From Aeromonadaceae bacterium (GTDB lineage: Bacteria; Pseudomonadota; Gammaproteobacteria; Enterobacterales; Aeromonadaceae), in assembly GCA_021209335.1 (NCBI GenBank), contig JAJOIN010000062.1, positions 1-51,239 of the forward strand: DNA of 51,239 nucleotides. The letters run 5' to 3'. A program made the translations under genes and the position numbers. Below the pieces are notes generated by a model that saw nothing but the letters and a program-made list of their open reading frames with translations, was not told the origin of the DNA and made no database searches. Below, piece after piece: positions 38,650 to 40,967 of the stretch (its first letter is position 1; each line of letters opens with the position of its first letter).

Positions 38650-39939
38650 ATGAGGGAACACAGTTTGGAAAGCACACTCAGCAAGGCGGCACCCAGCCAC
38701 TGGGACACTCTGATGCAACGGCTGCGCACCCTGGGCCCAGGGGTGCTGATGGCCTCGGCTGCCATCGGCGGCAGTCACCTGGTGGCCTCTACCCAGGCCG
38801 GCGCCCAATATGGCTGGTCCCTGGCCGGCCTCATACTGCTCATCAACCTGTTCAAGTACCCCTTCTTCCGCGCCGGGGTCAGCTACACCATGGCCACTGG
38901 CCACACCCTGCAGCACGGTTACTGCCAGATGGGGCGCGGTTACCTGGCCCTGGCCTTCGCCCTCAACCTCTTCTCCGCCGTGGTGAACACCGCCGCCCTG
39001 ACCCTGTTTTCTGCCAGCCTGCTGGGCTACTTCCTGCCGGTGCAGCTGGACATGACGGTGCTGTGCGGCATAGTCCTGGCCCTGAGCCTGCTCATAGTGC
39101 TGGCCGGTCACTTCGCCATGCTCAACAAGGTCTCCAAGGTCATCGTCTCCACCCTGGCCGTCGCCACCGTGCTGGCCACCTGCATCGCCTGGCAACAGGG
39201 GCCGGTGGCCCCGGCTGAGTTCGTTTCCCCCTCCCCCTGGCAGCTGGCGGCGGTGGGCTTTTTGGTGGTAACCATGGGCTGGATGCCGGCCCCCATCGAG
39301 ATCTCCTGCATCACCTCCTTGTGGCTGGCCCAACAGCGCCGTGAGCAGCTGGTCACCCCGCAAAGTGCCCTGTTTGACTTCAACCTGGGTTACCTGGTGA
39401 CCGCCGTGCTGGCGCTGATGTTCCTGGCCCTCGGCGTGCTGGTGCTGCATGGCAGCGGTGAAGCGGTGCAACAAGGCGGTATCGGCTTCTCCCAGCAGCT
39501 GGTGAGCATGTACGCCGGCACCATAGGCGAATGGTCCCGCTACCTCATCGCCCTGATCGCCTTCTTCTGCATCTTCGGCTCCACCATCACGGTGATCGAC
39601 GGTTACAGCCGGGCGCTGGCCGAGGCCCAGGCCTTGCTGCGCCAGCAGGCGGACTTCTCCAACCGCAGCCTGACCCTGTGGATCCTGCTGGTCACGGCGG
39701 TGAGCCTGGGGCTGTTGCTGTTTTTCAAGGCCGCCCTGCTGCCCATGTTGGGCTTTGCCATGACCCTCTCCTTCATGACCACCCCGGCCTTCGCCCTGCT
39801 CAACTACCTGCTAGTGCAGCGCTCCGCCATGCCCGCCGCGCTCAAACCCAGCAAGGCCCTGCAGGCGTTGACCCACCTGGGTCTGGTCTACCTGTTTGGC
39901 TTCCTTGGCTTCTTCATCTGGTGGAAATGGTTTTTATAA
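38650..39939 (+). CDS. Atypical Nramp-family transporter lacking the DPGN metal motif
   Basis: An integral membrane protein of 429 residues with about eleven hydrophobic segments and the general Nramp layout. Helix 1, normally GPGFL...DPGN, reads GPGVLMASAAIGGSHLV: the metal-binding Asp and Asn are replaced by IGGSHLV (39-45). Helix 6, normally MPH, reads WMPAPIEI (211-218), keeping the Met but not the His. It is therefore a distant Nramp relative whose substrate is unknown and may not be manganese or iron. Start is uncertain: ATG 38650, TTG 38665 (AGGGA seven bases before it) or ATG 38713. Confidence 0.8.
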   Translation: MREHSLESTLSKAAPSHWDTLMQRLRTLGPGVLMASAAIGGSHLVASTQAGAQYGWSLAGLILLINLFKYPFFRAGVSYTMATGHTLQHGYCQMGRGYLALAFALNLFSAVVNTAALTLFSASLLGYFLPVQLDMTVLCGIVLALSLLIVLAGHFAMLNKVSKVIVSTLAVATVLATCIAWQQGPVAPAEFVSPSPWQLAAVGFLVVTMGWMPAPIEISCITSLWLAQQRREQLVTPQSALFDFNLGYLVTAVLALMFLALGVLVLHGSGEAVQQGGIGFSQQLVSMYAGTIGEWSRYLIALIAFFCIFGSTITVIDGYSRALAEAQALLRQQADFSNRSLTLWILLVTAVSLGLLLFFKAALLPMLGFAMTLSFMTTPAFALLNYLLVQRSAMPAALKPSKALQALTHLGLVYLFGFLGFFIWWKWFL

Positions 39940-40052: not shown

Positions 40053-40967
40053 GTGAAGAGTGGAGTGAAAGGCTGTTGTCTGCGTCTTTTGCTGCTGTGG
40101 TGCCTGGCACCGGCCTGCCAGGCCGTCACCCTGTTTACCTATCGCCCCGGTGAAACCGCCAGCGATGTCCGCACCGCCTTCACCACGGCCCTGCTTGAGC
40201 TGGCCCTGGAGAAGACCCGACCCCAGTACGGCGACTTTCAGCTGGTCTCCGCCCCGGCCATGAACACGGCCCGCGCCCTGGCGGAGCTCAAAAAAGGCAG
40301 TCAGCCGAACTTCATGCTCAAGATGAGCTATGACCCCAAACTGGAAGCCAGCGGCCTGCTGCGCAGCAAGCTGGATGTGGATCTGGACATCATCGGCTAC
40401 CGGGCCTGCTTCACCCGCACCAGCCTGCTGCCCAGCCTGGCCCAGGTGCACAACCTGACGCAGCTGCAGCAATTTAGCCACGGCCAGGGCTCTGGCTGGG
40501 TAGATAGCCAGATACTGGCGGCCAACGGCTTCAAGGTGGTGACGGTGGGGCAGTACGAGAGCCTGTTTCGCATGGTGGCCACCGGCCGCTTCGATCTCTT
40601 CTGCCGCGGCATCAACGAGCTGCAAGGCGAATGGCAGGCCCATCGCCAGCTGGCCGGCCTGGCGGTGGAGCCCAGCCTGCTGCTCTACTACCCTTTGCCA
40701 CGCTTCTTTTACGCCAACCCGCGGGATGCTGCTGGTCTCCAGCGGGTGGAGGAAGGCGTGCGGCTGGCCCTGGCTGATGGCAGCCTGCAGCACCTGTGGC
40801 TCAGCCACTATGGCCCCAGTGTGACCTTTGCCCAGCCGGCCCAGCGCCGCCTGTTTCGCCTGCATAACCCCCTGCTGCCGCCGGATCTGCTGCCCGCCGA
40901 GCAGCCCCGCTTCGATCCCCTGCTGGGGGATTTCATCACGCCCCAGCCACCGCCGCGCCTGCCATAA
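40053..40967 (+). CDS. Periplasmic solute-binding-like protein
   Basis: A 304-residue protein with a signal peptide (LRLLLLWCLAPACQA) and a fold resembling type 3 periplasmic binding proteins (TLFTYRPGE at the mature N-terminus; GWVDSQILAANGF in the middle). There is no ABC permease or ATPase nearby, so it may act as a stand-alone sensor or scavenger. The start is GTG 40053, with AAGGAG six bases upstream. It resembles the protein at 26042 in layout but the sequences are clearly different. Confidence 0.75.
   Translation: MKSGVKGCCLRLLLLWCLAPACQAVTLFTYRPGETASDVRTAFTTALLELALEKTRPQYGDFQLVSAPAMNTARALAELKKGSQPNFMLKMSYDPKLEASGLLRSKLDVDLDIIGYRACFTRTSLLPSLAQVHNLTQLQQFSHGQGSGWVDSQILAANGFKVVTVGQYESLFRMVATGRFDLFCRGINELQGEWQAHRQLAGLAVEPSLLLYYPLPRFFYANPRDAAGLQRVEEGVRLALADGSLQHLWLSHYGPSVTFAQPAQRRLFRLHNPLLPPDLLPAEQPRFDPLLGDFITPQPPPRLP

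Follow-up and report, generated by a model that had tools for sequence, protein, structure and literature searches.

An intact gene at the border of the Nramp family

The window (the whole stretch of DNA analysed here, 51,239 nucleotides in length) contains, at positions 38650 to 39939 of the forward strand, a gene that raises the question of what a relative of the Nramp metal transporters carries when the residues that hold the metal are no longer there. The reading frame is intact, running from an ATG at 38650 to a TAA stop at 39937 to 39939 through 429 codons without an internal stop, and the encoded protein of 429 amino acids (P0001) can be assigned to what we call the GxSH branch of Nramp-related carriers on the basis of the open frame, a match to NCBIfam, an AlphaFold2 model and matches in the PDB. 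An earlier note had recognized at this place an Nramp-like gene devoid of the DPGN and MPH motifs, and both its coordinates and the replacement of the two motifs are confirmed. In particular, the first transmembrane segment (TM1), LGPGVLMASAAIGGSHLVASTQAGAQYGW, carries IGGSHLV, and the sixth (TM6), TMGWMPAPIEISCITSLW, carries GWMPAPIE.

The membership of P0001 in the Nramp family is remote, as far as sequence comparison goes. No Pfam match was obtained at E≤1, and the NCBIfam model NF037982 ("Nramp family divalent metal transporter") is reached with 52.1 bits against a cut-off of 50, a margin of 2 bits. One relative, 62% identical to P0001 (L002), scores above the PF01566 cut-off (35.6 versus 29.8 bits), and another (L028) gives no Pfam match at E≤0.1. 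In its own genome, an assembly that is 65.8% complete, neither a second GxSH copy nor a PF01566 match was found. The label "divalent metal transporter" that derives from NF037982 may well be wrong for P0001, since the metal-holding residues are absent, the protein belongs to a separate branch, and some of the sister branches resemble carriers of organic molecules.

The predicted fold

The AlphaFold2 model of P0001 (45 sequences; pLDDT, 90.0; pTM, 0.88) retrieves Nramp chains first in a Foldseek search against the PDB, with DraNramp at the top (E=6e-9). DraNramp is also the best entry according to VIA-align (Z, 39.0; root mean square deviation, 2.7; 367 residues), followed at lower scores by EleNRMT (37.4), AdiC (34.5), SLC7A10 (34.1) and YcsG (33.6), the last represented solely by the PDB model 9a52; certain other Nramp chains score below AdiC. 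The likeness to Slc11/MntH extends over residues 23 to 429 of the predicted fold, with Z scores of 38.1 to 39.0 to the DraNramp entries 6c3i, 6d91 and 8e5s and of 31.9 to ScaDMT (5m95), and it includes the GPG start of TM1 and the Asp of TM7; the structure-based identity is, however, 14 to 15%, and P0001 lacks D56, N59, H232 and the acidic residues of TM3 and falls in a separate clade. The amino acid-polyamine-organocation (APC) carriers AdiC (3l1l) and SLC7A10 (8wnt) share the LeuT fold with P0001 (Z, 34.1 to 34.5), but they rank below the best Nramp chains and are 7 to 12% identical to it. By prediction, P0001 thus has the Nramp LeuT-like fold, which bears out the claim that the rest of the fold is kept.

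The family sequence profile weakly finds the structure of a plant NRAT (E=1e-5) and DraNramp (E=0.001), placing GGSH over DPSN/DPGN. The model breaks the helix of TM6 at residues 212 to 217; in TM1, DSSP assigns an unbroken helix from residue 30 to residue 83, a feature of the model to which we attach no interpretation.

Residues fixed in the branch and loss of the Slc11 metal residues

Conservation was evaluated on 117 aligned members, near-copies counted, which comprise P0001, 80 loci from the collection of named genomes, 26 from near genomes and the phylum survey, and 10 from class genomes, the latter drawn from the 13 loci L243 to L255 with L243, L251 and L252 left out. At the place of DPGN in TM1 stands G40-G41-S42-H43 (38767 to 38778, forward strand), of which G40 is found in all members and S42 and H43 each in 116 of 117, the exception at H43 being L253 of genome G355, with the motif GGAN. 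The place of the A/CxxM-P-H stretch in TM6 is taken, according to the alignment and the helix break of the model, by the unwound G210-W-M-P-A-P-I-E217 (39277 to 39300, forward strand), in which G210, W211, M212 and P213 are, like G40, S42 and H43, retained in 116 or 117 members and position 217 is Glu or Asp in all of them. Furthermore, a Lys in TM2 (K69; 38854 to 38856), an Asp in TM7 (D243; 39376 to 39378) and both the Asp and the Arg of D317-x-Y-x-R321 in TM8 (39598 to 39612), all on the forward strand, occur in 117 of 117 members. Over the 30 columns examined, the invariant set is G40, T48, K69, Y70, P71, G210, W211, P213, D243, F244, G247, D317 and R321; G41 (93/117), A214 (109/117), P215 (113/117) and I216 (108/117) are less constant.

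For comparison with Slc11 we use the DraNramp numbering, which is anchored at D56 of DPGN through locus L118 and the literature, L118 being one position off in TM6. In this frame the branch is without the Slc11 residues corresponding to D56, N59, E124, D131, E134 and H232. The DxxN pattern of Slc11 TM1 is replaced in P0001 by G40 and H43; at the three TM3 places (E124, D131 and E134), no Asp or Glu appears among the residues listed for the 117 members; and the A/CxxM and P-H pattern of TM6 gives way to GWMPAPIE, with His absent whichever register is adopted. The Gln of Slc11 TM10 is Met or Thr in the GxSH branch. Of the two Arg places of TM9, the first is Arg in P0001 and Arg or Lys in 65 of 117 members, and the second is Ser in P0001 and not conserved among the 117 members.

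The register of TM6 deserves attention, as the earlier note had opposed MPAP to MPH. The residues that it reported in TM1 and TM6 are indeed present, but MPAP and MPH probably do not occupy corresponding positions. The many-row alignment and the profile comparisons with NRAT (8ont) and with the GPGT group align GWMPAPIE with GATVMPHN without gaps, so that Met corresponds to A214, His to I216, and W211 occupies the place of a small Ala or Cys. A weaker profile comparison with Slc11 (probability, 91.6) pairs MP with MP by means of added gaps, in which case Met is kept and His is replaced by Ala. The break of the model at 212 to 217 fits that of TM6 in known Nramp proteins; given this fit and the agreement of three of the four comparisons, we prefer the gapless register as the more probable one. 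The counterpart of DraNramp M230 is lost in the gapless register only; in either register, neither the Asp of TM1 nor the His of TM6 remains.

Phylogeny and distribution

The superfamily tree splits in two, with support of 100/99 in a tree of 59 rows and 99/99 in a tree of 55 rows; the former consists of the 55-row set plus nine plasmid-borne members minus five doubtful ones, namely four rows with the TQTATF motif and L161, omitted for long branches or doubtful alignment. One half (half A) contains Slc11 with DPGN, NRMT and the DDPSG, GPGT, GPGS and GPGA groups, and the other (half B) the GAGD, GSGE and GxSH groups. In the 59-row tree, the GxSH core forms one clade (100/100), which is joined by the GASH, GSSH and GGSH proteins of Azospirillum, Skermanella and haloarchaea in a clade supported at 100/98. 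When all 21 GxSH rows, including the distant ones and those of haloarchaea (L213 and L214), were forced together with Slc11, the topology was rejected (approximately unbiased [AU] test, P=5.3e-7), and the NRMT rows lie across the 100/99 branch from GxSH. In profile comparisons the nearest group to GxSH is GAGD (E=1e-24), followed by GPGT (1e-8) and Slc11 (8e-7). Moreover, the TM2 Lys occurs in 35 of 36 rows of half B versus 0 of 24 rows of half A, with the four TQTATF rows set aside, and in the alignment it marks the second half of the PF01566 superfamily.

The earlier note had named a placement inside a group with known manganese transport as the phylogenetic outcome that would speak against its proposal of a further functional branch. 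Since the GxSH rows lie outside Slc11, NRMT and GPGT in the trees and the AU test agrees, no such placement was obtained; NRAT was compared solely as PDB 8ont and has no row in the tree. The proposal is upheld in part, insofar as the branch is separate from those rows and its residue losses are branch-wide, but the replacement of DPGN and MPH is no rarity, several PF01566 branches being without them.

In the collection of named genomes, at least 591 stretches matched the pattern and at least 561 of these encode a relative. Considering this number together with the near constancy of the motif residues, the GxSH pattern is more than the product of chance or assembly error. The best 80 of the at least 561 relatives, 48 to 72% identical, belong mostly to Vibrio, Photobacterium, Alteromonadaceae, Pseudoalteromonas, Shewanella, Rheinheimera, Pasteurellaceae and Neisseria. 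Relatives were found in 14 of 61 near genomes, the own genome included and G056 excluded, whose match (E=9.5e-9) is a GAGD protein; in 21 of 299 genomes of the phylum survey, 5 of which have only remote PF01566 kin; and in 19 of 369 genomes of the class survey (family profile, E≤1e-30). Judged from its aligned members, GxSH is a real, conserved variant of the Nramp superfamily.

Some single occurrences can be recorded here. Among the matches listed, the nearest relative (72%; L038) comes from a metagenome-assembled genome labelled Malonomonas rubra (Thermodesulfobacteriota), and two genomes of the own genus (G001 and G002, one only 71% complete) show no match; transfer, loss and binning are alternative explanations. 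One copy (G544:C116:34891-35914) is broken into two frames, and genome G130 has a tandem pair of GxSH genes (L151:6150-8831) near genes that by eye look to be of propionate type. The plasmid collection includes two entries under the name Neisseria gonorrhoeae that, at about 2.17 Mb, are probably chromosomes, and each has a GxSH homologue (45%).

Gene neighbourhood of the GxSH branch

The GxSH gene has no constant companion: neither the 40 largest neighbour clusters listed for the 80 named loci nor 26 further loci (23 with the target gene) yielded a partner shared across the branch, and inspection of the latter by eye recognized no shared catabolic neighbour; the recurring neighbours among the 40 clusters are specific to lineages. 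The five distant GxSH loci (L167, L168, L171, L213 and L214) have no common partner, and in L167 katG and a peroxide regulator lie farther downstream. No metal gene was recognized by eye among the recurring neighbours, and the eight loci scanned whole gave no Rfam match at the gathering score, which means that they contain no known metal riboswitch.

Three clusters on the same strand recur just downstream of the GxSH gene: in Shewanella, a gene that by eye resembles a serine hydrolase (8/80 loci); in Rheinheimera and Alishewanella types, an antiporter-like gene, also by eye (6/80); and in some alteromonads, whose proteins are 64 to 66% identical to P0001 where measured, a putative nucleosidase gene (6/80; L042, L044, L050, L051, L054 and L067). 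Of these neighbours, only the alteromonad one may bear on function. The proteins encoded downstream in the six alteromonad loci have, by eye, a signal-peptide-like start, and the only one scanned (L054:9326-10201) matches PNP_UDP_1 with 141 bits and exceeds the cut-off of the MTA/SAH nucleosidase model TIGR01704 (88.4 versus 73.8). In the window itself, P0001 is followed at a distance of about 1.2 kb, and not directly, by a Xan_ur_permease gene. The frame at 40053 to 40967 of the forward strand, which encodes a secreted-looking protein of 304 amino acids that by eye resembles a periplasmic binding protein and has no Pfam or NCBIfam match, was considered as a partner and dropped, being without counterpart in the other loci compared.

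Sister branches and systems already known

The GAGD and GSGE branches, which fall under NF037982, are the nearest to P0001 (profile E=1e-24 for GAGD) and share with it the TM2 Lys and the Gly in place of the TM1 Asp; they differ in their glycine-rich TM6 and in the last place of the four-residue motif, which is Asp or Glu where P0001 has His. Fourteen of their loci were examined, L262, L263, L264 and L266 having been put in their branch by tblastn alone, and five lie in organic catabolic clusters: GSGE is found in two Streptomyces plasmids beside a four-carbon acid sugar kinase, PdxA, an aldolase and phosphoglycerate dehydrogenase and in Rubrobacter beside a hydrolase of the UxaA family, and GAGD in Mesobacillus beside a CoA transferase and a thiolase and in Rhodococcus beside an amidase. 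The GSGE genes of sugar-acid catabolic clusters L216:4935-6362, L263:4956-6377 and L217:4908-6332 are annotated as divalent metal transporters. The other nine loci (L169, L172, L215, L218, L219, L220, L221, L262 and L266) have no clear organic cluster, and metal-related genes lie near three of them: L218, L169, with an iron ABC transporter on the opposite strand, and L266, with MgtC/SapB nearby. In L218 (Roseomonas marmotae; L218:3232-6350), GSGE comes directly after a nonribosomal peptide synthetase and a 2,3-dihydroxybenzoate dehydrogenase, a siderophore-type arrangement.

In half A, one of three GPGT rows (L138) is directly followed by pxpA. Like P0001, the GPGT group has Gly for the TM1 Asp and neither Met nor His in TM6, but it has the motifs GPGT and TT[VI]VPY, no TM2 Lys and a position in half A; from the motif and one gene neighbour, we infer that it corresponds to the "orphan" outgroup of Cellier and to the PxpT/MntG type. 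A GPGA protein stands in two genera beside a gene of the DHDPS family and a LacI-type regulator (L147:4218-7777 and L265:2686-6269; the regulator of L147 by eye). Remote PF01566 members with GPGF[IL]TQTATFT in TM1 adjoin genes of the pxpA family PF03746 in L182, L184, L200 and L207; these TQTATF proteins add a second type to the transporters associated with 5-oxoprolinase.

The NRMT proteins resemble P0001 in fold (EleNRMT 7qia and 7qji; Z, 37.2 to 37.4) and, in the gapless register, in having Ala-Pro at the place of Met-Pro; they differ in keeping the TM1 Asp and in belonging to half A. Their motif, DxxG-TxxA/T (PMC8806188), is GGSH-WMPA in P0001. Aligned with 8ont, P0001 has neither the D nor the N of the NRAT motif DxxN-AxxT.

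That odd Nramp-related branches exist is already known. The available portion of a 2026 preprint (PMC12873925) treats the Nramp-related proteins as a paraphyletic assemblage in which DPGN and MPH are replaced in various ways, distinguishes an NRMT-like group and G-motif 3, and calls the remaining groups uncharacterized; the outgroup replacements given in the accessible parts of PMC9606685 and PMC10606218 fit the GPGT rows and not GxSH. In the portions of the literature that we found, the GxSH/WMPAP branch, its fixed residues and the split marked by the TM2 Lys are seemingly not named, and a figure of PMC12873925 may already draw GxSH. The word "Nramp" has 0 occurrences in the main text of PMC9007349 and PMC3219624.

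What the GxSH carriers may transport

The reading we favour, with about an even chance of being right, is that P0001 uses its LeuT fold to carry a small organic solute. P0001 would be a stand-alone secondary transporter within the Nramp superfamily (PF01566), without the canonical divalent-metal site, and would import the solute, possibly an anion or a zwitterion, through alternating access of the usual rocking-bundle type. It is possible to hypothesize that the solute is held at the break of TM1 and TM6 by H43, the acidic residue 217 and the Asp/Arg pair of TM8, residues that the alignment and the helix limits would place in the site, and that the TM2 Lys stands in for the coupling cation. 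We count in favour the predicted fold, the lost metal residues, the tree, the profiles, the organic context of sister branches and the case of PxpT, which according to the available text of PMC13274462 is required by Corynebacterium glutamicum for growth on 5-oxoproline. Against it we count the lack of a shared catabolic neighbour, the nine of 14 sister loci without an organic cluster, three of which have metal-related genes close by, the five distant GxSH loci with no common partner, and the manganese import reported, in the accessible parts of the respective papers, for YcsG/MntG of Bacillus subtilis (PMC10448178) and MumT of Acinetobacter baumannii (PMC5050338).

These reports bring in the main rival, according to which P0001 transports a metal by means of other ligands: H43, the acidic residue 217 and backbone carbonyls would replace Asp, Asn and Met around Mn, Mg or another ion. 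We consider this rival possible but doubtful. YcsG/MntG and MumT are outside the canonical Nramps and are said in those partial sources to raise cellular Mn, although MumT has no branch assigned here and the claim for YcsG is at odds with studies of YcsG and PxpT in relation to 5-oxoproline, as far as the available text of PMC13274462 goes. EleNRMT carries Mg with an altered site; the near-constant H43 (116/117) and the constant acidity of position 217 (117/117) would suit a metal, as would the Met retained in one of the two TM6 registers and the metal-related genes near three half-B loci. On the other hand, the TM1 break has no acidic residue, W211 takes the place of Ala or Cys in the gapless register, TM6 has no His and TM3 no Glu, and the neighbourhoods gave neither an Rfam match in eight loci nor, by eye, a recurring metal gene. 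The least credible explanation, favoured by the automatic NF037982 label, is that P0001 imports manganese as MntH does and that its motifs have drifted; it is contradicted by the tree, by the AU test (P=5.3e-7) and by the absence of the TM1 Asp and Asn, the TM6 His and the acidic residues of TM3.

Two more specific organic substrates can be weighed in the same manner. The import of a nucleobase or nucleoside product is suggested by the nucleosidase-like gene directly downstream in the six alteromonad loci (of which L054 alone was scanned) and by the Xan_ur_permease gene about 1.2 kb downstream in the window, but the latter is not adjacent and the former is confined to one related group, none of the remaining 74 loci having such a gene at that place, so that the link perhaps reflects one event; we regard this substrate as unlikely. 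Even less probable, to the point of being very unlikely, is that P0001 is the missing 5-oxoproline carrier of genomes whose pxpABC genes have no linked transporter. It is true that the GPGT and TQTATF relatives are linked to pxpA and that, in the own genome, no Nramp was seen next to the pxpABC genes of contig C5. However, pxpA was seen in four of eight GxSH genomes, a co-occurrence that led us to reject the pxpA link as the main reading, and none of 30 pxpA loci, inspected over about 1.5 kb on each side, has a GxSH protein. The PxpT/MntG type combines the GPGT motif with linkage to pxpABC; P0001 differs in motif, and its own pxpABC lies on another contig. In that locus (L212:6567-8910), pxpA, pxpC and pxpB, the last two named by eye, stand in a row with no Nramp-like neighbour.

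Implications for the family

Returning to the carriage of a small organic solute, a broader proposal can be advanced tentatively, with somewhat less than an even chance: the GxSH proteins, whose range extends from Gammaproteobacteria and Neisseria to haloarchaea, would form an organic-solute subfamily built on the Nramp scaffold, in which the TM2 Lys shared with GAGD and GSGE replaces the coupling cation; the metal-carrying Nramps would make up one part of the superfamily and carriers of organic acids its other half, and many "Nramp divalent metal transporters" would carry no metal. The fixed set of GxSH, K, W, [ED], D and DxYxR offers direct targets for mutants. If the proposal is true, the NF037982 label, which is widely used and of the equivalog type, would be wrong for the whole branch, including the relatives in Vibrio, Shewanella, Neisseria and Pasteurellaceae; the metal-uptake models of those bacteria would include importers that import no metal; and a related group with another substrate would be at hand for testing how Nramp metal selectivity arose.
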